From the NCBI RefSeq assembly GCF_018798885.1, contig NZ_CP076366.1, positions 64,501-128,500 of the forward strand: a DNA stretch of 64,000 nt. Reading direction: 5' to 3'. Source of the DNA: Gemmobacter fulvus (GTDB lineage Bacteria; Pseudomonadota; Alphaproteobacteria; Rhodobacterales; Rhodobacteraceae). Made by a program: the position numbers and the translations under genes. The notes beneath the pieces are model-generated. The model saw only the letters and a list, made by a program, of their open reading frames with translations, had not been told where the DNA came from and did no database searches. Positions 23,924 to 39,067 of the stretch are shown here, piece by piece (positions within the stretch are counted from its first letter, which is position 1; each line of letters starts with the position of its first letter).

Positions 23924-24412
23924 TCAATCCACGGGTTGATGTTGGCGTGGGCGCGCATCGGCCAGTCTTCCAGAACGAGACAGACCAGTCTTCTTCTCTA
24001 TTTCAGCCCTACTTGCGGGGCTGGGGCCATTCCCGAGGTCAGCCAGAATTGGACAATCTGGCCGATGATCCCCGCAGCATTCATCGGCGAGTTGCTGCAA
24101 GGTTTCCATCATGGCCTGCATCTCGCTGATTTTCCGCTCCAGCCCGGTTATCTGCTCCTGTGCCAGACGCTTCACGTCGCTACTCTGGCGGGATCGGTCT
24201 CGCCAGAGCGCCAGCAGTTCCTCGATTTTCTCTACCGGAAAGCCAAGGTCGCGAGAGCGCCGGATGAAGCGCAGCATTTGCACTTCGGTATCAGAATAGA
24301 CGCGGTAGCCCGAACCGGTGCGCCCTGCCGCAGGGATTAGGCCTGTAGACTCGTAGTAGCGGATCATCTTGGCAGATACGCCCGAGGCTTTTGCGGCTTC
24401 ACCAATGTTCAT
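23924..24412 (-). CDS. cueR: CueR, Cu(I)-responsive MerR-family regulator
   Basis: This 162-residue activator has an N-terminal MerR HTH (MNIGEAAKASGVSAKMIRYY, then ESTGLIPAAGR), a dimerisation helix, and a C-terminal loop with two cysteines spaced as in CueR (CCGDHRPDC). The C-terminus extends ~30 residues beyond typical CueR. It is cotranscribed with copA, starting 12 bp after its stop, and probably binds the divergent sites at 26934-26964 and 27003-27033 and related sites in the island. Its coding end lies next to the cobalamin leader. Confidence 0.92.
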   Translation of the reverse strand: MNIGEAAKASGVSAKMIRYYESTGLIPAAGRTGSGYRVYSDTEVQMLRFIRRSRDLGFPVEKIEELLALWRDRSRQSSDVKRLAQEQITGLERKISEMQAMMETLQQLADECCGDHRPDCPILADLGNGPSPASRAEIEKKTGLSRSGRLADARPRQHQPVD

Positions 24413-24424: not shown

Positions 24425-26893
24425 TCAGGCTTGATTAGGGGCAAAGCGGCGCAGACGCAGCGCGTTGCCAAGAACGAAGACCGACGACAGCGCCATCGCG
24501 CCGGCGGCAAAGATCGGCGACAGAAGAATTCCGTAAACCGGCCAAAGCGCCCCGGCGGCGACCGGGATCAGGGCGGCATTGTAAGCAAAGGCCCAGAACA
24601 GATTCTGCCGGATGTTGCGCATCGTGGCCTTCGAGAGCGCAATGGCGTCGGGCACTGCGGTAAGACGCCCCGACATCAACACCACATCGGCAGCCTCGAT
24701 GGCGATATCTGTGCCTGTGCCAACTGCAAGCCCCACGTCCGCCTCAGCCAGAGCCGGAGCATCGTTGATCCCGTCGCCGACATAGGCCAATGTGCCAAGG
24801 GCCTTCAGCCGCTTGACGGCGGCGACCTTTCCGTCGGGCAGGACCTCGGCCACGACCTCGTCGATGCCCAACTGCCGTGCGATGGCCTGCGCCGTGCGGG
24901 CATTGTCGCCCGTGATCATCGCAACCTTCAGGCCAAGCACATGCAGGGCCTTGATCGCCTGGGGTGTCGTTGCCTTGACCGGGTCGGCAACGGCAAGGAT
25001 CGCCGCCAATTTGCCCTCTATCGCGGCATAGAGAGGCGACTTGCCCTCATCCGCTAGCCGGACCGCGATATCGGCAAAGACCGCCACATCCAGACCGAGC
25101 TTTGCCATGTAACGGTCGGCCCCGATGTCGACCTGCGAGTCGCCGGCGCGCGCCAGGACACCATAGCCCGTGACGGCGGCGAATCCGGTCACTTCGGGCA
25201 GGGTCAGGTTCTCCTCCTTTGCTGCTGCCACGATAGCGCGGGCAATCGGGTGTTCTGATTTACCCTCGACCGCCGCGACGGCGGCCAGCACCTGGTTACG
25301 GTCAAAGCCGGGGGCAAGGTGAAGATCCGTTAGGCTGGGTTTGCCCATCGTCAGCGTGCCGGTCTTGTCAAAGGCCACCACCTTGACGTCTTGCAAGGCC
25401 TGCAACGCTTCACCCTTGCGGAACAGGATGCCCAGTTCCGCGCCGCGCCCGGTTCCGACCATGATCGATGTCGGCGTGGCCAGCCCCATTGCACAGGGGC
25501 AGGCGATGATCAGTACTGCCACGGCGTTGACAAGGCCAAAGGTCAGGGCAGGCTCAGGGCCAAAAACCAGCCAGACGATAAAGGTCAGCGCGGCCAGTGC
25601 CATAACCGCGGGCACGAACCACATGGTCACGCGGTCCACCAACGCCTGGATCGGCAGCTTTCCCCCCTGGGCGGCCTCGACCATGCGGATGATCTGGGCC
25701 AGCATCGTCGCTTCGCCCACCGCCGTGGCGCGAAAGGTGAAGGCACCGGTCTGGTTGATCGTGCCACCGGTCACGGCGCTGCCAATCGTCTTTTCCACCG
25801 GCAACGGTTCGCCCGAGATCATGCTTTCGTCGATCCAACTGGCCCCTTCGGTCACTTCACCGTCGACCGGCACCCTTTCGCCGGGGCGCACCTCGACCAG
25901 ATCGGACGGACGAACCTCGGCAATCGGCAACTCGACCACAGCACGATCTCGGAAAACCCGCGCCGTCTTGGCCTGCAATCCGACCAGACGCTTGATCGCC
26001 TCAGAGGTTCGCCCCTTGGCCCGCGCTTCGAGCGTGCGGCCAAGCAGGATCAGCGTCACGATGACGGCCGCCGCCTCGTAGTAGACGTTCACCGTGCCTG
26101 GTGGCAGCAAAGTGGGGACGAAGGTTGCGATCAGCGAATAGCCATAGGCGGCTGAGGTGCCGACAGCGACAAGACTGTTCATGTCCGGGGCAAACCGCGC
26201 CAGCGCGGGCAGCCCCTTGGCAAAAAAACGCAAACCCGGGCCAAAGAGAACCGCCGTCGTCAGGGCGAACTGCAGATACCAGCTGTTCTGCATGCCGATC
26301 GTGTTCATCACCGCCATATGCACCCATGTGAACAGGTGCGATCCCATCTCCAGCAGGAACACCGGCAGGCTCAGCGCGGCGGCGATCCGCAGATCCCGCC
26401 TCAGGGCGCTTTCCTCGGCGGCCTTGCGCAAGGTTACCTCCTCCGACAGATCGGCGGCGGACACGGCCAGACGCGCATAATATCCCGCATCTTCGATGGC
26501 ACGGATCAGGGCGGCAGGATCGGCCTGTCCAATCACATGTGCCAGCTCGGTTGCCAGATTGACCGAGGCATAGGTTACCCCGGACACAGTTTTCAGCGCA
26601 CGTTCCACCCGGGCGACGCAAGAGGCGCATGTCATGCCCTCGATCTGCAGATCGACAGGGCGAGAGGTAACGTCATAGCCCGCATCCTCGACAGCCTTGA
26701 CGAGCAACGCACGGTCAACGGCTGCGCCCTTCACCTCTGCCCTTTCGGTGGCGAGGTTGACCGACGCCGATTGAACGCCGGGCACCGCTTTCAGAGCGCG
26801 CTCGACACGGCCGACGCAAGAGGCGCAGGTCATGCCCTCCACGTCGAGAACGAATTTCTCTGCCTCAGCAATTGGCAATGTAGTCGCCTGCAT
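24425..26893 (-). CDS. copA: CopA, P1B-type Cu(I)-exporting ATPase with two HMA domains
   Basis: This 822-residue cytoplasm-to-periplasm Cu(I) pump has two N-terminal HMA domains, each with MTCASC ([15 protein letters not shown] and [15 protein letters not shown]), about 70 residues apart. Then come eight TM helices, [28 protein letters not shown] and [11 protein letters not shown] use the ATG at 26893 because the upstream extension to 26986 runs through the CueR-type promoter. copA leads a two-gene operon with cueR. It differs from the second ATPase (19625-21997), which has YHS/HMBD domains instead. Confidence 0.95.
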
Positions 26894-26933
26894 GTTCACA
26901 GCGGAACTCCTTCGGCATATGTTTCCGCTATTC

Positions 26934-26964
26934 GAGATAGGGCTTCCCATGATGGTAAGGTCAA
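26934..26964 (-). promoter_or_regulatory. CueR-type promoter of copA-cueR
   Basis: On the minus strand TTGACC (26959-26964) and TATCTC (26934-26939) are 19 bp apart. The spacer carries CCTTAC...GGGAAG, the same dyad as the copZ site. The copA ATG is about 40 bp downstream. Confidence 0.85.
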
Positions 26965-27002
26965 GGGCTGTTTTTTGTTTTTTCACTCACGGGTTTGTGC
27001 TC

Positions 27003-27033
27003 TTGACCTTACAACGATGGGAAGCCCCATATG
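27003..27033 (+). promoter_or_regulatory. CueR-type promoter of copZ
   Basis: TTGACC (27003-27008) and CATATG (27028-27033) are 19 bp apart around a CCTTAC...GGGAAG dyad. It is nearly identical to the divergent copA site, so both operons should be induced together. The copZ start is 36 bp downstream. Confidence 0.85.
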
Positions 27034-27068: not shown

Positions 27069-27257
27069 ATGCAGTTCCATATTGAGAACATGACCTGTGG
27101 CGGCTGCGCACGCAGCGTGACCAAGGCAATCCAGTCGGTTGATCCGACCGCCGAAGTCAATGCCGATCCCGGTGCACGCAAAGTCGATGTCAAATCCTCG
27201 GCTCCGCGCGACCAACTGGTTAACGCCTTGACCGAAGTTGGCTATGCACCTGCGTGA
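27069..27257 (+). CDS. copZ: CopZ-like copper chaperone (single HMA domain)
   Basis: This 62-residue cytoplasmic Cu(I) carrier is a whole HMA fold: MTCGGCARSVTKAI gives the CxxC site at residues 10-13, followed by the typical VNADPGARKVDV strand and LVNALTEVGYAPA. It should hand Cu(I) to the CopA ATPase and possibly to CueR. It is transcribed divergently from copA under a matched CueR-type promoter, with GAAGGAG as RBS. The next gene, encoding a DUF305 protein, is 55 bp away and has its own RBS. Confidence 0.92.
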   Translation: MQFHIENMTCGGCARSVTKAIQSVDPTAEVNADPGARKVDVKSSAPRDQLVNALTEVGYAPA

Positions 27258-27795: not shown

Positions 27796-28383
27796 TCACC
27801 CCATGCCGTGCAGTCCATGGAAGCCACCGGTGAGGATCACAGGCACGACGATCAGGGCTGCGGGCGCCAGGATCAGCGCCCGTTGCCATGCCCGCCTGAA
27901 CTGCCAAAACAAGAATAGAGCGAGCAAGACAACCAACCCGACCTCGAAGACCGCGAAAACGTCGCCGTAGAAGCGCTGGTCCCAGTAGCTGACCGGGCTT
28001 CGGAAGATCCAGTCAGACAGCGGCCAGAACTGGCGTCGAGCGTCGTCGTGATGGGTTACGAAATCCGCTACAGCGTGAAGCAGACCAGACCCCGCGAAAG
28101 CACGAAGCAGGACGCGGCCGCTCCAATGGGCAGCGAGGAAAAGCGGGGCCCAGATCAGGAAGCCGTGATCCACCGCGAAAATCGCTTGCCACGGGGCCGA
28201 AAAGTATAGCCGTCCAAAGACATCATGCTCCGGCAAACCGAGCACGCGGGTGGACCACAGGACCATAGCGAACATCGGCAAGTCCGGGACAAAGCTACCG
28301 ACCATCGCCGCAACAAGTGTTGCCGATGCCAGGGGCCGCGCAAAAAAAGCCGCTCCGATCAACATGTGCGACGGCGTGTTCAT
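27796..28383 (-). CDS. Multi-span membrane protein of the metal-dependent hydrolase (DUF457-like) type
   Basis: This 195-residue protein has about five hydrophobic segments. The opening MNTPSHMLIGAAFF, the GSFVPDLPMF motif and the HAVADFVTHHDDAR motif resemble YdjM/DUF457 membrane hydrolase-like proteins, which have a conserved Asp/His set. Related rhodobacterial genes are sometimes labelled as cobalamin-associated, but I see no evidence for that role. It ends an operon with the L,D-transpeptidase and DsbA-like genes (4-bp gap to the latter). Function unknown. Confidence 0.6.
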   Translation of the reverse strand: MNTPSHMLIGAAFFARPLASATLVAAMVGSFVPDLPMFAMVLWSTRVLGLPEHDVFGRLYFSAPWQAIFAVDHGFLIWAPLFLAAHWSGRVLLRAFAGSGLLHAVADFVTHHDDARRQFWPLSDWIFRSPVSYWDQRFYGDVFAVFEVGLVVLLALFLFWQFRRAWQRALILAPAALIVVPVILTGGFHGLHGMG

Positions 28384-28387
28384 AGCG

Positions 28388-29155
28388 TCAGCATACAGAT
28401 GTCTGTCTGGATTTCTCGTCTTCCGCGATGCGCCGGAGGAGTGTGTAGGGAATTGCGCCGTTGAGGACGGTTCGCCCGATCACGAGCCCCGGCGTGCCGA
28501 TAAACCCGAAAATATCGGCGAGAGCCCGGGTCCGATCAAGGTCTGCCTGGACTTCCGGCGAGGCCATGTCGCGGGCAAGCTGATCGACGTCGAGTCCGAT
28601 GTCGGTGGCTACGCGCAAGACGGATGCCGGTTCTGCGACCAGTGGCGTCCGCATGAAGTGTCGACGTAGCTCCTGCTGCTTGCCTTGCCGTGCGGCCGCA
28701 ACCGACGCGCGTGCGGCGAGTTCGGACGCAGGCCCGAAAATCGGAAGTTCATGCTGGATGAGGCGGAAGGATGCCGTATCCTCTGCCAAAAGCGTGTCCA
28801 GATCCCGCTCAAGTGCCCGACAGTAAGGGCAGCGGAATTCACTGAAATATGCGATTGGGACGATTTCCGTCAGTACCGCCGGGCCGAACAGAGCAGGGCA
28901 AAGGTCGGCACGCAAAGCGTCTGCACGCGCGCGTCGCTGATCAACATCGGCGGGCGGTGCGTCTAGCCCTATGAGTGCGACCGTTGCTCCAGAAGTCTGA
29001 CCCTGTTCCTCAAGCCGGCGAAATGGCGGCAAGTCTGGCAAGTCGATGTAACCTGGGCCGCGCCCGGGAAGACGGTCCCACGGCAGCGCACGCAAGCCGT
29101 AGATCAGGGCGACGGTCCCGCCAAGAACGAGCAGGCCACGGCGTGATCCTGTCAC
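28388..29155 (-). CDS. DsbA-family thiol oxidoreductase
   Basis: This 255-residue protein is exported or membrane-anchored (hydrophobic segment near residues 8-22). A thioredoxin-type active site CPYC lies in YFSEFRCPYCRALERD, and the cis-Pro loop is GFIGTPGLVIG. The fold matches DsbA/DsbG-like proteins involved in periplasmic disulfide chemistry. Its start overlaps the stop of the L,D-transpeptidase gene by 4 bp. Copper catalyses wrong disulfides, so a thiol-repair role is plausible, and L,D-transpeptidases need a free catalytic Cys; this link is inference. Confidence 0.85.
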   Translation of the reverse strand: MTGSRRGLLVLGGTVALIYGLRALPWDRLPGRGPGYIDLPDLPPFRRLEEQGQTSGATVALIGLDAPPADVDQRRARADALRADLCPALFGPAVLTEIVPIAYFSEFRCPYCRALERDLDTLLAEDTASFRLIQHELPIFGPASELAARASVAAARQGKQQELRRHFMRTPLVAEPASVLRVATDIGLDVDQLARDMASPEVQADLDRTRALADIFGFIGTPGLVIGRTVLNGAIPYTLLRRIAEDEKSRQTSVC

Positions 29156-29715
29156 AGTACGGTCACCGGCGTGCCGACGGGCACTTGATCATAGAGCTGC
29201 TTTACATGATCGTTCAGCATGCGGATGCAGCCGTTCGATACGGATTGCCCTATGGAGGCCGGATCTGTCGTGCCGTGGATGCGGAAATAGGTGTCACGGC
29301 CGTCTTTGTAGAGATAAAGCGCCCTCGCCCCGAGAGGATTGCCGGGCCCGCCCGGCACGCCGTCCGCGAATTGCGCATAGCGGTCGGGGTCACGCCGTAT
29401 CATGTCATTCGTCGGCCGCCACGAGGGCCACTCGGCCTTGCGCTCGATGATCGCCGTTCCCTTGAATTCGAGACCAGCCTTGCCAACACCGACGCCGTAG
29501 CGAATTGCGCGTTCGCTGTCGAAGACGTGGTAGAGGTAGTAAAGACGCGGGAATACAAGGATCTGACCCGGAGCGTGCTGCTCGCGGACGCGCACCTCTC
29601 GCGGCTGAAATTCTTCGGCCAAAACGAAAGGTTCTTCGGTGTGGGCTAGCAGGATAGACGGTGTGGCAAAAGCGGCAGCTGCGGCACCGCCTAAAAAGGA
29701 ACGTCGGGAAATCAT
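29152..29715 (-). CDS. L,D-transpeptidase (YkuD), Tat-exported
   Basis: This 187-residue periplasmic enzyme forms 3-3 peptidoglycan cross-links or attaches proteins to the wall. A Tat signal is visible (MISRRSFLGGAAAAAF). The YkuD domain has HGTTDPASIGQSVSNGCIRM with the catalytic His and Cys in the standard order. It is cotranscribed with the DsbA-like gene (4-bp overlap). It is a paralogue of 30231-30800, whose gene is divergent from this operon. Confidence 0.92.
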   Translation of the reverse strand: MISRRSFLGGAAAAAFATPSILLAHTEEPFVLAEEFQPREVRVREQHAPGQILVFPRLYYLYHVFDSERAIRYGVGVGKAGLEFKGTAIIERKAEWPSWRPTNDMIRRDPDRYAQFADGVPGGPGNPLGARALYLYKDGRDTYFRIHGTTDPASIGQSVSNGCIRMLNDHVKQLYDQVPVGTPVTVL

Positions 29716-29753
29716 GATGTCTCCTGGGATGAAGCGATTGGACTTGGGTTCGT

Positions 29754-30056
29754 TCAGGAGACGTATCGCGGAGGCGGCGGTTGTGGAGAAGAGATGCGGC
29801 TGCTTGCCCGTACTGGCCCGATTTCGAACTGCGATGGGGCAAAAGCGATCTTCAATATCGGAGTCGCGACCTGACCGGCCAATAGGACCTGGCAGGCCAC
29901 ATGACCAGAACCGCCGCCGCAGTGGGATTCCTGGAATATTGGCATGGCATGCATTTCGAGAAAGGGGCTTTCATGAACTGCATGATCCGATCGCGCCTCC
30001 CCAAAAAGAGACGCGAGCACAACAGCGCTGCAAAGAATGGCGAGTAACTTTCGCAT
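29754..30056 (-). CDS. Small secreted protein with Cys pair and Pro-rich tail (family member 1)
   Basis: This protein has 100 residues from ATG 30056. A signal peptide (about 1-23) is followed by a His/Met segment (DHAVHESPFLEMHAM), a pair of cysteines (HCGGGSGHVAC), a hydrophobic stretch, and a tail ending PQPPPPRYVS. Its architecture matches 30805-31179 and 39969-40319. I do not recognise a named family. The frame continues upstream to 30074, but the ATG at 30056 begins the signal peptide. It lies 38 bp before the L,D-transpeptidase and probably leads its operon. Likely a periplasmic copper-binding peptide, by inference. Confidence 0.6.
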   Translation of the reverse strand: MRKLLAILCSAVVLASLFGEARSDHAVHESPFLEMHAMPIFQESHCGGGSGHVACQVLLAGQVATPILKIAFAPSQFEIGPVRASSRISSPQPPPPRYVS

Positions 30057-30184
30057 CACCATATATAGAGTCACATGTGCTCTGAAGTGTTGTTCACATC
30101 GCAGTGACCTCTGCTATTTTCGCGCGGCGCGGCGAAATCGCCACGTCATCACCAGTTTGTGACCATTTGATCTGACAAACCGGT

Positions 30185-30215
30185 TTGACCTTCCCACGTT
30201 GGAAGGCTGTATCAC
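30185..30215 (+). promoter_or_regulatory. MerR/CueR-type promoter upstream of the second L,D-transpeptidase
   Basis: TTGACC (30185-30190) and TATCAC (30210-30215) are 19 bp apart. The spacer contains a CCTTCC-6-GGAAGG dyad, one base shorter in the centre than the 7-bp spacing of the other sites. It lies between the two divergent cell-wall operons; the -35/-10 orientation points to 30231-30800. Confidence 0.75.
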
Positions 30216-30230
30216 GATGAAAAAACCGAG

Positions 30231-30800
30231 GTGCAGCCCACGCGATCCAATCGACGTTACTTCGCTGTCGGAGCACTGGCCGCGCCCTTTTTGGTGGGCC
30301 GGGCCGCCTTTGCCTCCGAAGACACCGAAGGCCCGGTTCGCAATAACATCTCGTCGTTTCGGGTTCACGAGTGGCAAGACCATTTCGATGCGTTGGGTCT
30401 TGGGATCATCATATCTGACACGACCGCGAAGGTTCTCCAGCACTGGACCGGTGACGGTCAGATGTTCCTGTATCCGAGTTCTGTCCCGCTATCCGAGGAT
30501 CTGACTCGCAGGGGCTATACCGAAGTCGTCGAAAAGCGCGTCAAACCAAGCTGGACACCGACGCCATCGATGCGGGAGCGCAATCCCGAGTGGCCAGCAT
30601 TTGTGCCGGGCGGCGACCCCAGCAACCCGCTTGGAACGCGTGCCCTCTATTTGTCCTGGCAATATTACCGCATCCACGGCACCCACGATACGCGGAAAAT
30701 CGGGCGCCGTTCCTCAAACGGTTGCATCGGCCTCTACAACGAGCATATTGAAGAAGTCTTCGACCGAGTTCCGGTCGGGACGCAAGTCAAGTTGATCTAG
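30231..30800 (+). CDS. L,D-transpeptidase (YkuD), Tat-type export signal
   Basis: This 189-residue periplasmic peptidoglycan enzyme starts at GTG 30231. The SNRRYFAVGALAAPFLVG signal has twin arginines. The catalytic block HGTHDTRKIGRRSSNGCIGL keeps the His and Cys. It is a paralogue of 29152-29715 but with a different N-terminus (VRNNISSFRVHEWQDHFDAL). The only ATG nearby (30217) is out of frame. It has its own CueR-type promoter 16 bp upstream, so the leader would be very short. It is followed 4 bp later by a small secreted protein gene. Confidence 0.9.
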   Translation: MQPTRSNRRYFAVGALAAPFLVGRAAFASEDTEGPVRNNISSFRVHEWQDHFDALGLGIIISDTTAKVLQHWTGDGQMFLYPSSVPLSEDLTRRGYTEVVEKRVKPSWTPTPSMRERNPEWPAFVPGGDPSNPLGTRALYLSWQYYRIHGTHDTRKIGRRSSNGCIGLYNEHIEEVFDRVPVGTQVKLI

Positions 30801-30804
30801 CCTT

Positions 30805-31179
30805 ATGTTGAAGACGCACACCAAACGGACCGCGTTGAACTTCCTGCTTCCGGGCGGGATGGTCCGTGTTCTATGGGCATGGTCTTTCATGATCGTGCTG
30901 CTCTGCGGTTTGACTATTGGCCAATCTGCATCGGCGTTCGCCCCGGTTGATCATCACTCCCCGACCTCGGTAGAGATGTCAGACGGCACTGCCGGATCGA
31001 CGAACATATCGCTGTCTTGCCATCCGGCGCTGGCATGTACTGCATTCGTGTTGCCAGTCGGCGCAGTGACTGCGTTCATCCCCAGCCATGCAGTGATGTC
31101 GCGACCGCGTTTGGCCCAGACCCAGCTTCGCTTCGGGGGCCCCTCTGTCAGTCTGCCCCCTCCACGTCTGCTGATCTGA
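30805..31179 (+). CDS. Small secreted protein with Cys pair and Pro-rich tail (family member 2)
   Basis: This 124-residue protein has an N-terminal export signal or anchor (about 20-45, MVRVLWAWSFMIVLLCGLTI). Next comes an Asp/His patch (VDHHSPTSVEM), a Cys pair (SLSCHPALACTAFVLP), and a C-terminus GPSVSLPPPRLLI. The layout is shared with 29754-30056 and 39969-40319, although sequence identity is low. It starts 4 bp after the L,D-transpeptidase stop, so the two are probably coexpressed from the CueR-type promoter. No known family recognised. Confidence 0.6.
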   Translation: MLKTHTKRTALNFLLPGGMVRVLWAWSFMIVLLCGLTIGQSASAFAPVDHHSPTSVEMSDGTAGSTNISLSCHPALACTAFVLPVGAVTAFIPSHAVMSRPRLAQTQLRFGGPSVSLPPPRLLI

Positions 31180-31343
31180 AGGTCAGCCTGGGCAAGAGCC
31201 ATGGTTCGATGGTGCCGTTTCAGGCCCAGTCGAGTGCTCTGTCGTTTTAATCCTGACCCAAAACATGTGCGCAGTTCGCGAACCGCCTGAAGTGCGGTGC
31301 GCGGTGGTCAATCAAAAACAACAAACCGAGAGCAGTCAGGCAG

Positions 31344-31988
31344 ATGGCAAAACAATGGACAGGCGCTATGGCGCTTGCCGCTTCCGCAGTCGCGGCAGTG
31401 GCGATGGCACACAACGGGGCGAAAGGCGTCGTCCTTGAGAGGATGAACGGCATGACGGCGATGCGGGATACCGTGGCGGAACTGGCGCCAATGATGCAGG
31501 GCGCTGTGCCCTACGATGCCTTCATCGTCTCGGAAGGCGCCGCCGTGATCGCGAGCCACGCCGGCGAAACCATGCTGTCGCTCTTCCCCGAAGGCAGCCT
31601 TGAAGGCGTAACCTATGCCAAGCCGGAGATCTGGTCCAACTGGCAGGATTTTGCAGCTCTGGCAGAAGAGATGAGGGTATACGCAGATGCCCTGTCCGAG
31701 GCTGCGCCGAACGGGCTTGAACCGGCTTCCGCACTGCCGGCAGACATGGCGGGGATGGATCATACCGGAATGGCCATGCCCCCTGTCGAAGAGACCAATC
31801 CCGGTTTTTCGGTGGCAGAGTTAATGGGCTATGCCGAAAAGACCGCAGACAGCCCGGTTTCGTCAGGACAGGCAGACCCGGCCTCCCTAGCGCCGACCCT
31901 TTCTAGCCTTGCCGCCGATGATTTGTTCACTCGGATCAGCGGAACCTGCTCCTCTTGTCATGCGCAGTTTCGCGCGGGAAAGAACTGA
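31344..31988 (+). CDS. Cytochrome c' (class II c-type cytochrome) with Met/His insert
   Basis: This 214-residue periplasmic monohaem protein has a signal peptide (1-22), a four-helix core, and the C-terminal haem site CSSCH in FTRISGTCSSCHAQFR, the class II position. An insert between helices carries MAGMDHTGMAMPP, the same tag found in three other proteins of this island. Cytochromes c' bind NO or act in electron transfer; a copper role is inferred. It opens a series of eight tightly packed genes to 38517. Confidence 0.88.
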   Translation: MAKQWTGAMALAASAVAAVAMAHNGAKGVVLERMNGMTAMRDTVAELAPMMQGAVPYDAFIVSEGAAVIASHAGETMLSLFPEGSLEGVTYAKPEIWSNWQDFAALAEEMRVYADALSEAAPNGLEPASALPADMAGMDHTGMAMPPVEETNPGFSVAELMGYAEKTADSPVSSGQADPASLAPTLSSLAADDLFTRISGTCSSCHAQFRAGKN

Positions 31989-31990
31989 CC

Positions 31991-32974
31991 ATGCGGGGCC
32001 TGATCCGGCTTTTTGCCATTTTGCCGACCGTGGTGGGTAGCCTTGGTGCCGGGGTGCTGGCGCTCTGGCCCATCGGAGATGCGGAGCCCGCCGCATTTCC
32101 GATCGGCGACCCTGAACGTGGGGCGTATCTGGCCCGTTCAGGCGGTTGCGTGTCGTGCCACACCAACGCGGCGGCGAAGGGCCCCGCACTTGCAGGCGGT
32201 GCACCGCTCGATACGCCGTTCGGAACTTTCGTGCCGCCGAACATCACGCCGCATCCTGTGGCGGGAATCGGGCGGTGGACCATTCAGGATTTCGCGCGTG
32301 CCGTGCGTCAGGGCGTTTCCCCAGAAGGGGACCCCTATTATCCGGTCTTCACTTATTCCTTCTACGCCGGGTTTACAGACCAGGACATCGCCGACTTGTG
32401 GGAGGCTTTTCGGACTGTCCCACCCGTCGCCGAAGCAGCTCCTGTCCATGATGTGGGCTTCCCCTTCAGTTTTCGGTCCGGGCTGAAGCTGTGGCGGGCC
32501 AACTATCTTGATGCGCCGGTGACGGACGCGCTGATGGGCACATCGTCGCCGTGGAACCGCGGACGTGTTCTGGTTGAAGGGGCGGCGCATTGCGCGGCCT
32601 GTCACACGGGACGAAACCTTGCCGGTGGCCTGAAAGACAGCGCGCGTTTTGCGGGAAACGACGATCTGCCTGGCGGCAGCAAGGCGCCGTCGATCCTCGT
32701 GGCCGACCTCCTAGGGCGGGGCTTTACGGTGGGCAACCTCAGCTATGCCCTCAAATCCGGGCTCCTTCCGAACGGAGATGCCTTTGGCGGCAGCATGGCT
32801 GAGGTCGTAGCGCAGGGCACTTCTTATTTTACGGACGCCGACCGCGAAGCGATTGCAACCTACCTTCTTGATCCCGATGGCACTGGATTAGTGCCCGCGC
32901 CCGGACCGCTGCCCACAGACACACCCATGGCGGGGATGGATCATTCAAACATGGACATGAGCAATGAAAACTAG
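31991..32974 (+). CDS. Dihaem c-type cytochrome with C-terminal Met/His tag
   Basis: This protein has 327 residues from ATG 31991, 2 bp after the cytochrome c' stop. An N-terminal anchor (about 5-27) is followed by two class I haem sites: CVSCH (GGCVSCHTN) with a GTFVPPNITPHP loop, and CAACH (AAHCAACHTGRN). This resembles the dihaem subunits of membrane dehydrogenases. The C-terminus ends in MAGMDHSNMDMSNEN, the island's copper-binding-like tag. Its last 11 bp overlap the next gene. Partner oxidase or dehydrogenase is unknown. Confidence 0.88.
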   Translation: MRGLIRLFAILPTVVGSLGAGVLALWPIGDAEPAAFPIGDPERGAYLARSGGCVSCHTNAAAKGPALAGGAPLDTPFGTFVPPNITPHPVAGIGRWTIQDFARAVRQGVSPEGDPYYPVFTYSFYAGFTDQDIADLWEAFRTVPPVAEAAPVHDVGFPFSFRSGLKLWRANYLDAPVTDALMGTSSPWNRGRVLVEGAAHCAACHTGRNLAGGLKDSARFAGNDDLPGGSKAPSILVADLLGRGFTVGNLSYALKSGLLPNGDAFGGSMAEVVAQGTSYFTDADREAIATYLLDPDGTGLVPAPGPLPTDTPMAGMDHSNMDMSNEN

Positions 32975-33392
32975 AGTTCTGGCCATCCTCGTTGCTCTCG
33001 GCGTCCTCGGATTTGTGGGTGCATTCATCTGGGCAGCGATGCGGCCCCCGGCGTCAGTGCCGATATCATCCGGCGGAGTCGCACCGACTGCATCGGTTTC
33101 TGAAATGCTGCCGGACGGACGAATCGACGTGCAAGTCTACGCCACGGGGAACCGAGATGTCCGTATGGACATCCAGTTCGTGCCCGACGCTGATACAACA
33201 GAGTCGATCGACATGCGACCGGACGTCAACTTTGCCATGGTCGAGATGCACATGGACGGTTTCACACCGCCCCTTGAATTGGTCGAGGCAGGTGTTTGGC
33301 GGGTCAACCTCAAGCTGCCAATGGCTGGCCTATGGCTCGTCAATGTCGGTTTTGGTGAGGAATTTGCGGAGGTTCAGTTCGATGCTCCCTGA
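32964..33392 (+). CDS. Membrane-anchored periplasmic protein, FixH/YtkA-like
   Basis: This 142-residue protein has an N-terminal anchor (residues 5-25, AILVALGVLGFVGAFIWAAM). A beta-rich domain follows with an EMHMDGFTPPLELVEAGVW pattern and a GLWLVNVGFG end. This resembles FixH/YtkA-like domains, known for accessory roles in metal-loaded respiratory enzymes. The call is tentative. The Met/His pair in MVEMHMDGF could bind copper. It overlaps both neighbours by 11 bp, so translation is coupled. Confidence 0.6.
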   Translation: MKTRVLAILVALGVLGFVGAFIWAAMRPPASVPISSGGVAPTASVSEMLPDGRIDVQVYATGNRDVRMDIQFVPDADTTESIDMRPDVNFAMVEMHMDGFTPPLELVEAGVWRVNLKLPMAGLWLVNVGFGEEFAEVQFDAP

Positions 33393-33873
33393 AATTATCG
33401 CGTCTGAGAAATTGCGCGCAGATGCCCTCCAAAGGCTCATTCGCGGAACTCTTGCCGGGCTGGCCGTGTTCGCCACCTTGGGTACAGTCACCGCTGTCTG
33501 GATCAATCCCTTCTTTGTGCGCATGACCCCGGTTGGACCCTGGGAGCTTGGGGCGACGACCTTAACTGCGATATTGGTTGGCGTGATCATCGGCCTCTGG
33601 GTTCCGCAGTGCCGTTTGCGAACGTCCGGGGCGGGTGGCGTTGCAAGCTTTCTCGGCATCGCTTGCCCGACCTGCAACAAAGTCCTGATGCTGATCTTCG
33701 GTGGCCCAGCCCTGTTGGCCTGGTTCGACCCGGTTCGGCCCTATCTGGCGGTGGCAGGCGTGATCATCATGTCATTCGCCGCGATGCGGGCGTTGCGGGC
33801 ATACCGTGATTTCAGAATGTCGGCGGGCGGAACAGTAAACGCCAGTTCAACGTCGTTTGGGAGCAACAAATGA
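33382..33873 (+). CDS. Membrane protein with intramembrane CPTC motif
   Basis: This protein has 163 residues from ATG 33382, which overlaps the previous stop by 11 bp. Four hydrophobic segments are visible, near 25-45, 60-78, 92-115 and 125-142. The motif GIACPTCNKVLMLIFGG places a CxxC in or beside the third segment; such a pair could bind Cu(I) or act as a redox pair. I do not recognise a named family. It lies between the FixH-like and ferric-reductase-like genes and overlaps the latter by ATGA. Confidence 0.65.
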   Translation: MLPEIIASEKLRADALQRLIRGTLAGLAVFATLGTVTAVWINPFFVRMTPVGPWELGATTLTAILVGVIIGLWVPQCRLRTSGAGGVASFLGIACPTCNKVLMLIFGGPALLAWFDPVRPYLAVAGVIIMSFAAMRALRAYRDFRMSAGGTVNASSTSFGSNK

Positions 33874-34625
33874 GGGTCGCCGAAATATCAGGCCACGCTG
33901 CAAGGCCGCGTCGTCTGGCACAACGGACGCTGGTTCGCCATGCGGCTGTGGCATTTTTGGCCACCGGACTGGTTCTTGGCTTTGCCGCCGTACACTTCGA
34001 TTTCAGCCCGATGCACCGCTGGAACCGAGCATTCGGGGATGCCTCCATGGTACTTGTCGCTCTGTCCGTCGGGTTAGGGCCATTGGCTCGGTTCCTCCGG
34101 AGTATCGTGCGTGTTCTTCCTTTCCGGCGTGAGCTTGGCATCTACGCATGCCTTCTTGTGATCGTTCATGCCGCTGTGATCTTGATTGGTTGGGTCCAAT
34201 GGGACCTGATGCGGCTTTTTGGCTTCGAATGGCATCCTGAACTTCTGACCTATGTGATGCTTCAGCATGGCTTCGGACTTGCCAATGCCATTGGGGTTGC
34301 CGCCCTTCTGCTTACGATCCTGTTGGGTGTGACTTCGAGCGACTTCGCCATGCGTCGCCTTGGTGTTTCGGGCTGGAAATTTCTTCAAATGGGCGTCCTG
34401 CCGCTCTGGTGGCTGACCGTCGCGCATGTAGCCTACTTTCTGTTCATGCATTTCCTCAGTTTTCACCGCGCGACCCCGCCGCCGAATACGCTCCAGCCTT
34501 GGTTCCTGGGGCTGGTCGCCGCAGTTTTTGCTCTGAGAGGGGCCGCTTATGTGCTGACCGTTCGCGCGAAGGGGAAATCTCGGCCGGAAGAAATGGGAGG
34601 AGACCGTGCGACGATCTCAACGTGA
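33870..34625 (+). CDS. Ferric-reductase-like transmembrane haem protein (MsrQ-like)
   Basis: This 251-residue protein has about six TM helices and paired His residues suitable for b-haem ligation (CLLVIVHAAVILIG, LTYVMLQHGFGLAN, WLTVAHVAYFLFMHFLSFH). The layout matches the FRD/MsrQ superfamily. MsrQ passes quinone electrons to periplasmic methionine sulfoxide reductase. No MsrP is present here, so partners may be the neighbouring cytochromes or the CPTC protein. It overlaps upstream by 4 bp and its end overlaps the PBP2 gene start by 20 bp. Confidence 0.72.
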   Translation: MRVAEISGHAARPRRLAQRTLVRHAAVAFLATGLVLGFAAVHFDFSPMHRWNRAFGDASMVLVALSVGLGPLARFLRSIVRVLPFRRELGIYACLLVIVHAAVILIGWVQWDLMRLFGFEWHPELLTYVMLQHGFGLANAIGVAALLLTILLGVTSSDFAMRRLGVSGWKFLQMGVLPLWWLTVAHVAYFLFMHFLSFHRATPPPNTLQPWFLGLVAAVFALRGAAYVLTVRAKGKSRPEEMGGDRATIST

Positions 34626-36558
34626 CCTTGCCCAGATATCCCAGAAGACCACACGAAGGGCGCTTCTGATGGGGGGCGTCATGACAACGTTTGTCGGCGT
34701 GCTGGGCCTGCGGATGTGGCAACTGGGTGTACGTGACGCAGATCAATATTATCTGTTGGCTGAAGAAAACCGTATCAGCTTGCGGCTTGTGCCGCCCAAC
34801 CGAGGTCGCATCTATGACCGCGCAGGAAAGATAGTGGCCGACAACGAGCAGGCTTTTCGTATCACGCTGGTGCGCGAGGAGGTCAAAGATCTTGAAGACG
34901 TGCTTGCGAAACTGCGACGTCTTCTGGGTCTTGATGACGAAGCCATCGTTAAGATCAAAGGCCAGATCGAGCGGACAAGCGGCTTTGCTCCAATCACCGT
35001 GAAAGACCGGGTCACGTGGGAAGAACTGTCAATCGTGGCTGTGAACGCGCCAGCACTTCCGGGGATCCATCCGGAAATGGTTTTGTCGCGCGTCTATCCG
35101 TTTGGTCCCGATTTTGCTCACCAGGTTGGCTATGTAGGCCCAGTGAGCGAGAACGATCTGAAGGAAGAAGAGGTCGCGGCTGAACCCTTACTCCGTCTGC
35201 CAGACTTTGAGGTCGGCAAGATCGGGATTGAGCGCAGACATGAACGAGCGCTGCGCGGCTTGCCGGGGACGCAGCGTGTCGAGGTCAATGTGTCTGGGCG
35301 CACCATGCGGGAACTGGCGCTTGATCCGCCGACAGCCGGGCCGGACATGCAAATCACGCTCGACCATCATCTGCAGAATTTTATGCGCGTGCGTCTCGAA
35401 GGTCAGAGCGCGGCGGCCATCGTCATGGACGTGACGGATGGCGATGTGCTTGGTTGCACATCAGCACCGTCGTTTGATCCGAACCTGTTCGTGCGTGGCA
35501 TCTCGAACCTGGACTATGGCGCGCTGCGCGACAACGAGTTTCGCCCGCTGTCCGACAAGACAGTGCAGGGGGCCTATCCACCGGGATCAACGGTCAAGAT
35601 GTCGAATGCGTTGGCCGCACTTGAGAGCGGTGTCATGGACCCTGCAGAAACGGTCGCCTGCAATGGCTATGTCGAGATTTCAGGCCGCCGGTTCCATTGC
35701 TGGAAACGTGGCGGGCATGGGCGGGTGGATATGGTCGGCGCTTTGCGTGAGTCCTGCGATGTCTACTTCTATGAGGTTGCGCAACGCATCGGGATTGACG
35801 GCATTTTTGCCATGAACGATCGGCTCGGGCTTGGCCAGAAGTATGATCTGCCGCTGTCCGGCATGGCGCGCGGCAACAACCCCTCGCGCGATTGGAAGCA
35901 GAAGAAGTACGGCCAAGACTGGCTGATTGGCGACACGATCAACGCCTCAATCGGGCAGGGCTTTACTCTGGCCTCGCCGATTCAGCTCGCAACCATGGTG
36001 GCGCGGCTTGCTTCCGGCACGGCCGTGCTGCCTCGGATGGTGCGGCCGATCAGCGGGACGTCGACGGAAAACTCTGCTCCAGCGTCTCTTGGACTTTCAG
36101 CTGAGGCGCTGTCCATCGTTCGGCAGGGTATGTTCGAGGTGTCTAACCACGAGCGTGGCACTGCCTACGCGTCAAGAATTGCCGACCCGACAAAAGTGAT
36201 GGCAGGAAAGACCGGCTCAAGCCAGGTTTTCTCGATCTCGGCGGCGGAACGCGCGGCGGGTGTCCGATCACAGGATGAACTGCCGTGGAACCGTCGTGAC
36301 CACGCGCTGTTTGTCGCCTTTGCCCCGTTCGACGCACCCCGCTATGCAGTCACAGTGGTAGTCGAGCATGGTGGTGGAGGTTCAACGGCTGCCGCGCCGA
36401 TAGCACGCGATATCATGCTGTTCGCGCAATACGGCGGATTGCCACCGACGGACGCTTATCCCGCGTCGCAAAGGACCCGCGTCAGCGATCAGCTGGCACT
36501 CTTGTCCGATCGCATCCTTCCGCCCGATGGTGCGACATCAATTGTGAGCCGGACATGA
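34606..36558 (+). CDS. mrdA: Penicillin-binding protein 2 (transpeptidase)
   Basis: This 650-residue inner-membrane D,D-transpeptidase builds wall in rod elongation. One N-terminal TM helix (about 20-40) precedes a PBP dimerisation domain (PPNRGRIYDRAGKIVADN). The active-site motifs are complete: Ser328-Lys331 in PPGSTVKM, Ser383-Asp385 in ESCDVYFY, and K535-T-G in MAGKTGSSQ. It starts at GTG 34606 inside the previous gene. Finding an mrdA-type gene without rodA or mreBCD, within a cytochrome/copper operon, is unusual. It is probably an accessory copy rather than the housekeeping one. Confidence 0.93.
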   Translation: MRRSQRDLAQISQKTTRRALLMGGVMTTFVGVLGLRMWQLGVRDADQYYLLAEENRISLRLVPPNRGRIYDRAGKIVADNEQAFRITLVREEVKDLEDVLAKLRRLLGLDDEAIVKIKGQIERTSGFAPITVKDRVTWEELSIVAVNAPALPGIHPEMVLSRVYPFGPDFAHQVGYVGPVSENDLKEEEVAAEPLLRLPDFEVGKIGIERRHERALRGLPGTQRVEVNVSGRTMRELALDPPTAGPDMQITLDHHLQNFMRVRLEGQSAAAIVMDVTDGDVLGCTSAPSFDPNLFVRGISNLDYGALRDNEFRPLSDKTVQGAYPPGSTVKMSNALAALESGVMDPAETVACNGYVEISGRRFHCWKRGGHGRVDMVGALRESCDVYFYEVAQRIGIDGIFAMNDRLGLGQKYDLPLSGMARGNNPSRDWKQKKYGQDWLIGDTINASIGQGFTLASPIQLATMVARLASGTAVLPRMVRPISGTSTENSAPASLGLSAEALSIVRQGMFEVSNHERGTAYASRIADPTKVMAGKTGSSQVFSISAAERAAGVRSQDELPWNRRDHALFVAFAPFDAPRYAVTVVVEHGGGGSTAAAPIARDIMLFAQYGGLPPTDAYPASQRTRVSDQLALLSDRILPPDGATSIVSRT

Positions 36559-37031
36559 CCTTGCGGGAGAAGAACAGATGGGCGTTCCGCCTTCAAAGGT
36601 CGTTGCTCATCGGCGGCCTCTTGGCGACCGTGGCCACTCCATCCTTCGCCTTCTTTCACAGTGAGCCGGATATCGAGTTGGGCCGGAAGACGTATCAGGA
36701 AACTTGTGCATCCTGCCACGGCGCAAATCTGGAAGGGCAGCCGAACTGGCAATCAGCAAACTCGAACGGGACTTATCCTGCACCTCCCCACGATGAGACA
36801 GGTCACACGTGGCACCACGGGGATGAAATGTTGCTCAACTACATCCGCAAAGGTGGGCAAGTTGTGCTGGACGAGATGGGTGTCGATTTCATGTCAGGCA
36901 TGCCCGCGTTCGGTGAGCAACTTTCGGATGCCGAGATCGAAGCGATCCTCGCCTATATCAAATCGACTTGGCCAGCGCGGGTCCGCGCCACGCAGGAAGA
37001 CCGCACCCGCATGGAGGCGGCGAGCGAATGA
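36555..37031 (+). CDS. Class I c-type cytochrome
   Basis: This 158-residue periplasmic monohaem cytochrome has an export signal up to about residue 32 (VATPSFA) and a haem-binding CASCH in YQETCASCHGANLEG. A Met ligand is likely in FMSGMPAFGEQLSDAEIEAI, the standard class I ending. It starts in an ATGA overlap with the PBP2 gene, so the two are translated together. It probably accepts electrons from the membrane proteins of this operon; direction and partner are unknown. Confidence 0.88.
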   Translation: MTLREKNRWAFRLQRSLLIGGLLATVATPSFAFFHSEPDIELGRKTYQETCASCHGANLEGQPNWQSANSNGTYPAPPHDETGHTWHHGDEMLLNYIRKGGQVVLDEMGVDFMSGMPAFGEQLSDAEIEAILAYIKSTWPARVRATQEDRTRMEAASE

Positions 37032-37135: not shown

Positions 37136-37864
37136 ATGCGCGTTACCCAAATGATACTTGCCGCCACGTTTGCACTAGCGTTGCCAGAACAATCCCTGTC
37201 GCAAGAGATCTCCGATGATCGGATCAAGGCGCTCGTGGCCGAAACACTTCGGGAAAATCCCGAACTGGTGCTGGAAGCCTTGCAGGCCCTGGAAGCGCGC
37301 CAAGCCGAAGCTCAGGCCGCCACAGCCGCGTCTGTCCTCACCAAAGAACGCACCACTTTGGAACGCGACCCCAATGCGCCAATCCTCGGCAATCCGGACG
37401 GCGACGTCACGATTGTGGAATTCTTTGACTATAATTGCCCCTACTGCAAACGGGCCATGCCCGAAGTCAATGCCTTGATGGCCGACGACACCAACGTGCG
37501 CCTTGTTTTGCGTGAGTGGCCGATCCTGAGCGAGGGGTCTGCTTTTGCTGCCCGCGCCGCCCTGGCGTCGCGGCAGCAGGGCAAATACGCCGAAATGCAC
37601 GACGCCCTGATGACGATGCGCGGCAAGGTTGAAGCAGAGGCCGTGCTGCGCATAGCAGGTGAGGTCGGTCTCGACATTGAGAAGCTGAAGATCGACATGC
37701 AGTCGCCCGAAGTTGAGGAGCATATTGCCACCTCAATGAGACTGGCCGAGGCGCTTGGTTTCAATGGCACGCCCTCGTTCGTGGTCGGCGATCAGCTGAT
37801 CCCCGGTTTTGTGGAAAAGCCGCAGTTGGTCGAAGCCGTGACAGCAGCACGGGCGGTAGAATGA
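37136..37864 (+). CDS. DsbA-family periplasmic oxidoreductase (DsbA/Com1-like)
   Basis: This protein has 242 residues from ATG 37136, where a signal peptide begins (MRVTQMILAATFALALPEQ). The upstream ATG at 37028 would add 36 non-conserved residues. It has an N-terminal helical segment (ENPELVLEALQALEARQAE), then a thioredoxin fold with CPYC in FFDYNCPYCKRAMPEV and a cis-Pro loop GFNGTPSFVVGD. It resembles the BdbD/Com1 type with a likely disulfide-forming role. It follows the cytochrome gene and overlaps the next gene by ATGA. Confidence 0.88.
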   Translation: MRVTQMILAATFALALPEQSLSQEISDDRIKALVAETLRENPELVLEALQALEARQAEAQAATAASVLTKERTTLERDPNAPILGNPDGDVTIVEFFDYNCPYCKRAMPEVNALMADDTNVRLVLREWPILSEGSAFAARAALASRQQGKYAEMHDALMTMRGKVEAEAVLRIAGEVGLDIEKLKIDMQSPEVEEHIATSMRLAEALGFNGTPSFVVGDQLIPGFVEKPQLVEAVTAARAVE

Positions 37865-38517
37865 GTGTCCTATTGCCGCGCTTTCCTGTCGCCCGTCTTC
37901 CATTCTCGTTTGCGGACGTGGAAAGGGTCCAGACCGCGATCAGGCGGTCTATCTTGGTGGTTGCAGTGTGGATGGCCCTGTCAGGGAATGCCTTGGCGCA
38001 TTCGTTCACTGCAGCTCTTATAGTCGCCGACGATAACCGTGAAGCAAGCCTCGCAGAAGCCGTACGCGGCTTCCTGCTGGCGGCAGACGAGCGGGATGGG
38101 CACGCAAACGAAACGTCTGACGGGCATCTGGGTGGGGTCGATGTGCATGTGCTTCCGCTTCCGCGCGATGCAGCCGGGTCGGTCGAAGGCCTGATCGGTA
38201 AACCTACCGAGCCCGGCGATGTCGTGGTCGTCCTTGGCACTGAACCTGCAGCAAGCGAAGCCGCGCGAAAGTATCAGTCCAACAGCACCGTCTTGCTGCA
38301 AGTGGTGCTACCGGTGGGATGGGACAGCGACGTAGGGACTGACAGTTTTGTGGCGCGCTACCGTCTCGCCTATGGCACAGCGCCCGGTTTGATGGCGGCA
38401 ACAGGCTATCACGCAGCGCGTCGTCTGGATGTAGCCATCAGACCGCTGGACGGTGTGATCCCGCGGGCGGCTCTGGAAGACGCTTGGCGGTCAACCTCGT
38501 CCGGGCTGCCTTGGTAA
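37861..38517 (+). CDS. Hypothetical exported protein, periplasmic-binding-protein-like
   Basis: This 218-residue protein has a hydrophobic export segment around 30-46 (ILVVAVWMALSGNALA). The rest looks like one lobe of a type I periplasmic binding fold: EAVRGFLLAADERDG, PGDVVVVLGTEPAASEAA and VARYRLAYGTAPGLMAATGYHAARRLDVAI, as in branched-chain-amino-acid binding proteins. It is too short to be a full receptor. It closes the operon beginning at 31344. Related ABC substrate-binding-like proteins occur beside quinohaemoprotein dehydrogenases, so an assembly role is possible. Function unknown. Confidence 0.5.
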   Translation: MSVLLPRFPVARLPFSFADVERVQTAIRRSILVVAVWMALSGNALAHSFTAALIVADDNREASLAEAVRGFLLAADERDGHANETSDGHLGGVDVHVLPLPRDAAGSVEGLIGKPTEPGDVVVVLGTEPAASEAARKYQSNSTVLLQVVLPVGWDSDVGTDSFVARYRLAYGTAPGLMAATGYHAARRLDVAIRPLDGVIPRAALEDAWRSTSSGLPW

Positions 38518-38599: not shown

Positions 38600-39067
38600 T
38601 CAGGCTGCCGGATAGCTGGTGAACATGCTGCTGCTGCCGTCAAGTCCGACGAGAAGAACGTCATAAGCTTCGCGCTCGGCCTCTGGCCCCATGCCGGGAG
38701 AGCCGAAAGGCATGCCTGGAACGGTGAGCCCGGTAGCAGCAGGACGTTCGGCCACCAAGCGACGGATATCGGCGGCGGGGACGTGGCCTTCGATGGTGTA
38801 GTCGCCGATCGTCGCCGTGTGGCACGAGACAAGATCATCGGGGATGCCACGTTCGCGCTTGAATGCGGCCAGTTCTTCAACGCTGCGCTCTTCGAAGCTG
38901 ACAGCAAAGCCGCTCTCGCGAAGGTGGCCGATCCAGGCATTGCAGCAGGGGCAGCCCGGATCTTTGACCACGTGGATGCTCGCGTCTGTTTTGGCCCAAA
39001 CGGGCGTGGTGGCGAGGCTGATGGCCCAACTCATCGCTCCGATCATGGTGCGTCGAGATATCTGCAT
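38600..39067 (-). CDS. DUF411 family protein, copy 1
   Basis: This 155-residue exported protein has a Tat-like signal (MQISRRTMIGAMSWAISLA). The DUF411 motifs are PGCPCCNAWIGHLRESGF with vicinal cysteines, LVSCHTATIGDYTIEGHVPA, and a Met-containing PGMPFGSPGMGPE near the end. DUF411 proteins are linked to copper resistance and are thought to bind copper through these Cys/Met residues. It is convergent with the preceding operon. It shares the same layout as copy 2 (42452-42928) with clear divergence, so they are not a recent duplication. Confidence 0.9.
   Translation of the reverse strand: MQISRRTMIGAMSWAISLATTPVWAKTDASIHVVKDPGCPCCNAWIGHLRESGFAVSFEERSVEELAAFKRERGIPDDLVSCHTATIGDYTIEGHVPAADIRRLVAERPAATGLTVPGMPFGSPGMGPEAEREAYDVLLVGLDGSSSMFTSYPAA

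Follow-up and report, generated by a model that had tools for sequence, protein, structure and literature searches.

The window analysed here, a stretch of 64,000 nucleotides from Gemmobacter fulvus (bases 64501-128500 of the 141,504-base contig NZ_CP076366.1, in a 4.68-Mb genome of seven contigs), carries at roughly 19.5 to 46 kb a copper island in which two L,D-transpeptidases (LDT1 and LDT2) and a PBP2 are encoded among copper and cytochrome genes. The explanation that we favour, which we hold to be slightly more probable than its negation, is that these genes belong to a mobile set of spares, switched by copper, that would stand in for copper-sensitive enzymes of the envelope, within a Rhodobacterales copper-resistance island. 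LDT2 heads a long plus-strand gene run behind a CueR-type box, with PBP2 inside the run and with LDT1 and a DsbA-like protein encoded back to back with it. From this layout we infer copper induction, read-through as far as PBP2 and a replacement role: rising copper would cause a regulator to switch on the spare LDT, read-through may add PBP2, cytochromes and ScsC, and the cell would obtain fresh cross-linking, cytochrome and disulfide enzymes at a time when its core copies are inhibited or mis-metalled. Judging from their residues, the spares are probably not copper-proof through thiol loss, and the gain would more likely come from the fresh supply, from twin-arginine export after folding in the cytoplasm, or from altered partners.

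The box upstream of LDT2

Four TTGACCTTCC-N-GGAAGG boxes with no more than two mismatches were found in the 64-kb window, and none in six Markov-simulated windows. The box preceding LDT2 reads TTGACCTTCC-CACGTT-GGAAGG, without mismatch and with a centre of 6 bp; the three others, located 5′ of the Cu ATPase, of another metal ATPase and of CopZ, have a centre of 7 bp. An earlier, sequence-only reading of this DNA had assigned a CueR-type promoter to LDT2, and the assignment stands. In a survey covering the 83 labelled loci of 85, a box with at most two mismatches was present within 260 bp 5′ of LDT2 in 33 of the 51 copper loci versus none of the 32 others (Fisher p 2e-10, too small a value because near-duplicate loci are among those counted), the chance rate being 46 of 2040 random stretches of the copper loci. 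At the level of sequence, there is good support for a copper-type promoter of LDT2. All 33 boxes have the 6-bp centre and differ in this from the ATPase boxes here and from the E. coli copA box, whose dyads have a 7-bp centre. The LDT2 box may thus represent either another class of CueR site or the site of another regulator.

Across 295 genomes of the family, the exact 6-bp pattern occurs at 49 places in 40 genomes versus 12 for the backward control, by which about a quarter of the 6-bp matches could be due to chance, and the exact 7-bp pattern occurs in 124 genomes. Downstream genes were read at one locus per genome, for 30 of the 49 6-bp places and for 30 7-bp places among those listed. The gene 3′ of the 7-bp box was a metal ATPase in 23 cases, CopZ in two, and CueR, a cytochrome c and a DUF305 protein in one each, with two unrecognised. 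Conversely, the 6-bp boxes were followed by a cytochrome c (11 loci), LDT2 (seven), CopZ (seven), and DUF2933, Rieske and CcmI-like proteins (one each, the last a weak match of 29% identity), again with two unrecognised, and no ATPase was seen 3′ of the 30 boxes read. Of the seven LDT2 loci, one is that of the window itself, and one has DUF2933 on the other side. Two box classes are hence observed, the 7-bp one mostly 5′ of export ATPases and the 6-bp one mostly 5′ of envelope genes and CopZ, and the tallies place the spare LDT in a mainly envelope-directed class of copper-type promoters.

Wall enzymes and their core counterparts

That two LDTs and a PBP2 lie among copper and cytochrome genes, as first read from the letters, was confirmed by profile searches. 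The YkuD Pfam scores were 71.0 bits for LDT1 and 77.8 bits for LDT2 (cut-off 23.4), and PBP2 passes the NCBIfam mrdA equivalog TIGR03423 (684 bits, cut-off 455). Their neighbours by Pfam or NCBIfam include CueR, metal P-type ATPases, DUF305, DUF411, cytochromes, DsbA/ScsC and a multicopper oxidase, with TlpA/redoxin-type, SCO, PCuAC and M23 proteins added by Pfam.

Both LDTs have twin-arginine starts and, by alignment, an intact catalytic His and Cys (H148 and C164, numbered from the second codon and invariant in 41 rows), and the structure model of LDT2 resembles solved LDTs (best Foldseek match 4lzh, E 2.3e-10). Of the 14 YkuD matches in the host genome, 12 lie on the 3.38-Mb contig, where LDT2 has a paralogue (L016) of 62% identity over 158 residues and LDT1 has two (L013 and L009) of 49-55% identity. 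An alternative role for the island LDTs would be anchoring, i.e. the attachment of outer-membrane or periplasmic proteins to peptidoglycan, or a stiffening of the wall, upon copper damage to the outer membrane, with local remodelling by PBP2 and M23. Some alphaproteobacterial LDTs link outer-membrane proteins, and among the NCBIfam models the highest scores, all far under the cut-offs, were those of LdtE and two related L,D-transpeptidases. YkuD LDTs are known for an Arg two places after the catalytic Cys; it is present in LDT1 (GCIRM) and replaced by Gly in LDT2 (GCIGL) and nearly all of its core kin, so that the chemistry of LDT2, in core and island alike, may be special. Still, no anchor substrate was identified, and since both island LDTs have paralogues on the 3.4-Mb contig a new activity need not be invoked; we consider anchoring unlikely. 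Of the 86 rows of the LDT2 family, core and island members alike, all except one have GC[IVY]GL or GCVGM as their active site; this subfamily of L,D-transpeptidases thus has Gly where LDT1 has the Arg. The LDT1,3 family (LDTGo), whose Gox1074 is described as a lipoprotein with its Cys at 264, was considered as a candidate family, being alphaproteobacterial.

On the LDT2 tree, with three of its 86 rows unlabelled (flanks too short, or own core row) and a long-branch warning on the Paracoccus rows, the copper label needs five changes versus 25.7 when shuffled, and none of 500 shuffles was as low. The same five changes were obtained on the careful tree, where all are forced by starred branches; three are forced on the quick tree. 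A single branch with all copper LDT2s on one side, which had been considered, found no support in view of the five changes; a single gain followed by losses may still account for them. Copper-proofing of LDT2 through loss of cysteines was likewise discarded, as the mean Cys number is 1.0 in 42 copper rows and 1.09 in 33 others (identical rows merged; L003, L004 and L073 excluded from the copper set), and so was copper-proofing of PBP2 through loss of metal ligands, its C-C-H-C site being identical in island and core. The notion of copper-tolerant enzymes therefore found no footing in these residues: the island LDT2 keeps its catalytic Cys and PBP2 its core-like Cys/His site. In Rubellimicrobium aerolatum (L073), a copper cluster with LDT1 pieces in separate open reading frames (ORFs), DUF411 and SCO-PCuAC-SCO adjoins a core-like LDT2 and is possibly an island that sits next to the core gene.

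PBP2 has the dimerisation and transpeptidase domains (Pfam), and the motifs STVK, SCD and KTG are read from its translation. Its GTG start lies within the end of the ferric-reductase-like gene (20-nt overlap) and its stop overlaps the start of the next cytochrome by ATGA, in agreement with the translational coupling to cytochrome genes proposed from the letters. A core PBP2 of 56% identity to the island protein is encoded in the same genome. Both an island-type (63-84%, or the query) and a core-type copy (53-58%) were present in 11 of 13 genomes, G. fulvus included, with island-type identities mostly of 82-84% and of 63% in one genome; the other two have an island type alone and an island type plus a 39% match, respectively. 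On the tree all island PBP2s save L061 group in a single tight clade (100/100) that is separate from the core rows. According to the accessible part of one report, A. baumannii PBP2 requires a Zn site near the active site (PMC9974482), and the island PBP2 would fit the set of spares if copper disturbs its putative metal site; its C-C-H-C residues are equated with the A. baumannii D-D-H-C ligands by spacing and motif only, not by alignment.

Recurrence, sister islands and layout

A scan of species genomes with the LDT2 alignment gave 584 confirmed relatives, and 46 of the best 80 have copper-type genes within the fetched flanks; the counts below out of 46 copper and 32 other loci refer to these flanks and this set of 80. 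The copper label was assigned from ScsC, multicopper oxidase, CueR, DUF411 and ATPase matches, so that co-occurrence counts of those genes are circular; the LDT count, PBP2, CcmF, CcmG/H/I, DsbD, Rieske and DUF2933 are independent of it. The recurrence in other genomes on which the sequence-only reading had staked its case was found: the block LDT1, LDT2, cytochromes, YtkA-like, ferric-reductase-like, PBP2, cytochrome and ScsC stands in the same order at 11 loci besides the window (L001, L002, L025-L027, L029-L034). These represent eight isolates and three metagenome-assembled genomes (MAGs). In two of the isolates, Neotabrizicola shimadae and Tabrizicola piscis, the block is plasmid-borne; the other six comprise Haematobacter massiliensis, Pseudogemmobacter bohemicus, Rhodobacter ruber, Pseudotabrizicola algicola, R. 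capsulatus SP108 and Gemmobacter caeruleus. The MAG labels Verrucomicrobiaceae (L030, full block) and Porticoccus (L041, part of the block, from a shortened LDT2 through PBP2 and without LDT1) call for caution. The same block surrounds the island PBP2 at four further stretches, L215 and L216 from Pseudogemmobacter and L213 and L214 from family genomes that are possibly kin of genomes already counted, and a search from PBP2 alone found the island type in four of the 295 family genomes, each time within this island, namely in the window, at L213 and L214, and in a genome with the PBP2 of L001 at identical coordinates. In Pseudogemmobacter bohemicus Cd-10 (L026) the PBP2 island is present three times on a single contig, and the PBP2 proteins of the three copies are identical. 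Relatives of LDT2 (E to 1e-40) were found on 132 plasmid records, 59 of them typed conjugative, the surroundings having been read for few; island-type PBP2 occurs on two.

The pN/pS ratios of LDT1, LDT2 and PBP2 were 0.10-0.15 in six comparisons each, with dS near saturation, which indicates strong purifying selection. Values for the ATPase were 0.21-0.23, and 0.35 at one locus where the gene is cut; ScsC ratios above 1 for L025, L213 and L214 are frame artefacts and were not used. If the wall genes were passengers swept into the island, with no role in copper, the transposition genes nearby and the single tight clade of island PBP2s, one row excepted, would be readily understood, yet a gene order shared by many hosts, the low pN/pS, a box 5′ of LDT2 in copper loci only and the clustering of the copper LDT2s on the tree make such passengers very improbable.

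Many roseobacters carry the same LDT within another copper cluster, without PBP2. Among these sister islands, L036 encodes CcmF, redoxin-type, CcmH, CcmI-type and DsbD-type proteins together with a cytochrome and a multicopper oxidase, whereas a Rieske protein is encoded in L051; 6-bp boxes lie 5′ of CcmF in L036 and L050 and 5′ of Rieske in L051, L054 and L056. Copper loci exceed the 32 others in CcmF (8/46 vs 0/32), DsbD (14/46 vs 0/32), a second LDT (25/46 vs 1/32) and Rieske (4/46 vs 0/32, p 0.14). Second-copy status was examined for LDT, PBP2, CcmF and Rieske only. Island-type (79-92%) and core (52-54%) CcmF were both present in five of seven genomes, the other two being one with an island type alone (77%) and G. 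fulvus itself with the core type alone; an island position of the second CcmF was observed for L036, L053 and L050, the finding for L035, L037 and L045 being its presence in the genome, and in L057 its place falls at the edge of the locus. Two Rieske matches were found in four of seven genomes, one of them split. Sister islands are located on the conjugative-typed plasmids pDSHI03 of Dinoroseobacter shibae and pP66_b of Phaeobacter inhibens, both of them growable and genetically manipulable species, and, together with petA, on pRLO149_83 of Roseobacter litoralis. On pDSHI03 the stretch from ccmF to dsbA comprises DSHI_RS20380-20440, with the LDT as DSHI_RS20410. On two Paracoccus plasmids three LDT genes accompany DUF411, and one of the two plasmids further carries M23, LspA, DsbB and SCO-PCuAC-SCO.

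Since the same promoter class and the sister islands extend to cytochrome-c maturation, disulfide and Rieske genes, the theme would be envelope copper targets generally. The copper-induced replacement kit for wall building that had been proposed from the letters survives in part, as a conserved copper module whose LDT2 often has a copper-type promoter, seen near copper genes only; as a theme it was too narrow. It is quite possible, although we stop short of calling it probable, that the 6-bp operator class constitutes a distinct layer of resistance by target replacement, separate from the 7-bp export class, which would control mobile spares of copper-poisoned enzymes: L,D-transpeptidases and, in some islands, PBP2, CcmFGHI, DsbA/DsbD and Rieske. 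The number of cytochromes allows for a different account, in which the genes of the run chiefly provide a cytochrome/haem electron chain for copper or redox repair in the periplasm, within a general envelope-stress or respiratory module where LDT2 and PBP2 serve growth under any stress. The PBP2 run contains three cytochromes and a ferric-reductase-like protein, and cytochrome c, the most frequent gene behind the 6-bp boxes, is near LDT2 in 41 of the 46 copper loci. The type of box, CueR, CopZ and the copper ATPase nevertheless tie the set to copper, and we regard such a general module as rather improbable.

The layout of the island is given in Table 1. An Lnt remnant, noted already in the sequence-only reading, was recovered as such, matching the lnt model in its C-terminal part only; it overlaps an IS6-type transposase ORF (46875-47597), the lipoprotein-maturation gene apparently having been cut by an insertion. 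The M23 peptidase of that reading is present as well, but not with the extent 42925-44091, as the ORF reaches 44292 at its first possible start (TTG), overlapping the SCO gene, and 44091 would correspond to a later start. To the left of the island (4995-11301) a phage-type integrase, TniQ and a Mu-transposase-C protein (Tni-like) form a possible carrier element, and a Fic/DOC family protein is encoded at 12471-13706 on the same contig. A histidine kinase (Pfam) and an adjacent same-strand ORF of response-regulator size lie beside the second metal ATPase (16109-18234); a kinase/regulator pair is found 5′ of the LDT in many sister islands too.

Table 1. Features of the copper island, in window coordinates
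Feature	Position	Strand	Basis or remark
CueR-type box, 7-bp centre, 5′ of second metal ATPase	19536..19558	+	0 mismatches
Second metal ATPase	19625-21997		Pfam
CueR, Cu(I)-responsive regulator	23924..24412	-	NCBIfam TIGR02044, 169.7 bits, cut-off 147.4
Cu(I) P-type ATPase, CopA type, two heavy-metal-associated (HMA) stretches	24425..26986	-	Pfam; NCBIfam TIGR01511 above cut-off
CueR-type box, 7-bp centre, 5′ of P-ATPase, overlapping its first possible start	26942..26964	-	2 mismatches
CueR-type box, 7-bp centre, 5′ of CopZ	27003..27025	+	2 mismatches
CopZ-like HMA metallochaperone, short ORF	27069..27257	+	sequence reading; heavy-metal-associated protein annotated at equivalent position in L001, L002
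hyp195, conserved protein	27796..28383	-	no Pfam match; 58-68% identity at equivalent position in PBP2-type loci
DsbA-like thiol oxidoreductase	28388..29155	-	Pfam PF01323
LDT1, YkuD L,D-transpeptidase, twin-arginine start, SNGCIRM active site	29152..29715	-	Pfam, alignment
CueR-type box, 6-bp centre, TTGACCTTCCCACGTTGGAAGG	30185..30206	+	first base 46 nt 5′ of LDT2 start codon
LDT2, YkuD L,D-transpeptidase, twin-arginine start, SNGCIGL active site	30231..30800	+	Pfam, alignment, structure model
hyp124, small conserved protein	30805..31179	+	
Cytochrome c′	31344..31988	+	Pfam PF01322
Cytochrome c, first possible start, true start may be later	31955..32974	+	Pfam PF00034
YtkA-like protein, sub-threshold match	32964..33392	+	Pfam 20.8 bits, cut-off 25.9
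Small membrane-type protein, conserved in relatives	33382..33873	+	start from translation
Ferric-reductase-like transmembrane protein	33870..34625	+	Pfam PF01794
PBP2, mrdA type, Cys/His site kept	34606..36558	+	Pfam, NCBIfam
Cytochrome c, ATGA overlap with PBP2	36555..37031	+	Pfam
ScsC-like DsbA	37136..37864	+	Pfam ScsC_N and DSBA; start read from sequence
hyp218, conserved protein	37861..38517	+	no Pfam match
DUF411 protein	38600..39067	-	Pfam
Multicopper oxidase	40390..41859	+	Pfam
TlpA/redoxin-type protein	41919..42440	+	Pfam
Second DUF411 protein	42452..42928	-	Pfam
M23 metallopeptidase, first possible start	42925..44292	-	Pfam; equivalent position in L213-L216
SCO - PCuAC - SCO, copper chaperones	44108..45759	-	Pfam
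Lnt (apolipoprotein N-acyltransferase) remnant, N-terminal part missing	46070..46927	-	TIGR00546 model positions 170-395 of 395

Weighing and implications

Several observations weigh against a copper-switched set of spares. With up to two mismatches allowed, 18 of the 51 copper loci have no box in the 260 bp 5′ of LDT2, and two of these (L049 and L053) have a regulator/kinase-type pair 5′ of their LDT genes instead. PBP2 has no box of its own, so that its induction would depend on the operon layout and on about 4 kb of read-through from LDT2. Tight gene overlaps permit such read-through, but they are interrupted by a 164-nt gap at 31180-31343, after hyp124, in which no box was seen in 12 aligned loci read by eye. 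In addition, the stretch from LDT2 to PBP2 has six plus-strand terminator-like sites, located within hyp124 and the ferric-reductase-like gene, and these slightly lower the probability that we assign to the spare set; both strands of the 8.6 kb hold 12 such sites versus 7.4 (standard deviation 2.6) expected by shuffling, a slight excess. PBP2 is found in just 11 of the 46 copper loci, namely nine with the full block, the partial L041 and the differently built island L061 (a Cypionkella MAG with a 63% PBP2), M23 in none and SCO/PCuAC in two. At the residue level, the island LDT2 retains a single catalytic Cys, as does the core LDT2, and C-C-H-C is present in 16 of 16 island PBP2 rows and in 11 of 12 core rows, the twelfth having D-D-H-C. 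The clearest difference in LDT2 is at position 70 (window numbering), with Gln in 48 of the 51 copper loci as opposed to His in 31 of the 32 others; the residue switches just twice on the tree (sign test p 0.5), Q70 is absent from both Paracoccus rows, and a part in copper tolerance would be conjectural. The island Rieske gene of L056 is split. Finally, R. litoralis, a bearer of a sister island, was inhibited at 0.04 mM copper and R. denitrificans grew at 0.1 mM, according to the accessible text of PMC3141670. This is a comparison between species and not a knock-out, and it speaks against a strong effect on resistance.

Cytochrome c assembly is reportedly a copper target, as a 2015 mBio paper is said to have found, and we know of no work showing a natural bacterial defence of LDTs against copper. 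In the accessible part of a 2022 review, LDTs, lipoprotein maturation, Fe-S clusters and thiol proteins are named as copper targets (PMC9302775), and the islands taken together hold members of each of these groups; Cu2+ blocked an LDT completely in vitro, according to an excerpt of a further paper (PMC10864386).

The island shares CueR, a CopA-type ATPase, CopZ, a multicopper oxidase and TTGACCTTCC-N7-GGAAGG boxes with CueR copper efflux operons of the copA, copZ, cueO type, and differs from them in the second, 6-bp box class, which over the loci read stands 5′ of LDT, cytochrome, DUF2933, Rieske, ccmF and some CopZ genes. With ScsABCD (suppressor of copper sensitivity) the window shares a ScsC-like protein and a sister island a DsbD-like one; that system is not known to include wall enzymes, unlike the island of the window. 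Roseobacter plasmid metal clusters (pRLO149_83, pDSHI03) resemble the sister islands, with LDT, cytochromes, multicopper oxidase, DsbA, a heavy-metal-associated protein, a P-ATPase and CueR, and the window type adds LDT1, PBP2 and M23. Metal genes on pRLO149_83 and their orthologues on D. shibae plasmids have been described, the word transpeptidase being absent from the accessible text (PMC3141670). The nearest analogy in working, and in working only, is target replacement by mecA/PBP2a, likewise a mobile and here probably induced spare of a core enzyme. It differs in that the stressor is a metal and that PBP2 passes the mrdA equivalog and scores far under the mecA model cut-offs; of the insensitivity of a mecA-style spare, no sign in the form of thiol loss was seen in the sequences of island LDT2 and PBP2. 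No paper joining copper resistance with spare LDT, PBP2 or ccm genes, or describing two box classes, was found in the open-licence PMC literature. Heavy-metal genes on these plasmids are known, and what we would call new is a copper island with a putative target-replacement layer. If this reading is true, the gene content of the islands would be a natural list of envelope copper targets, and metal resistance could work by target replacement, as it does for some antibiotics.

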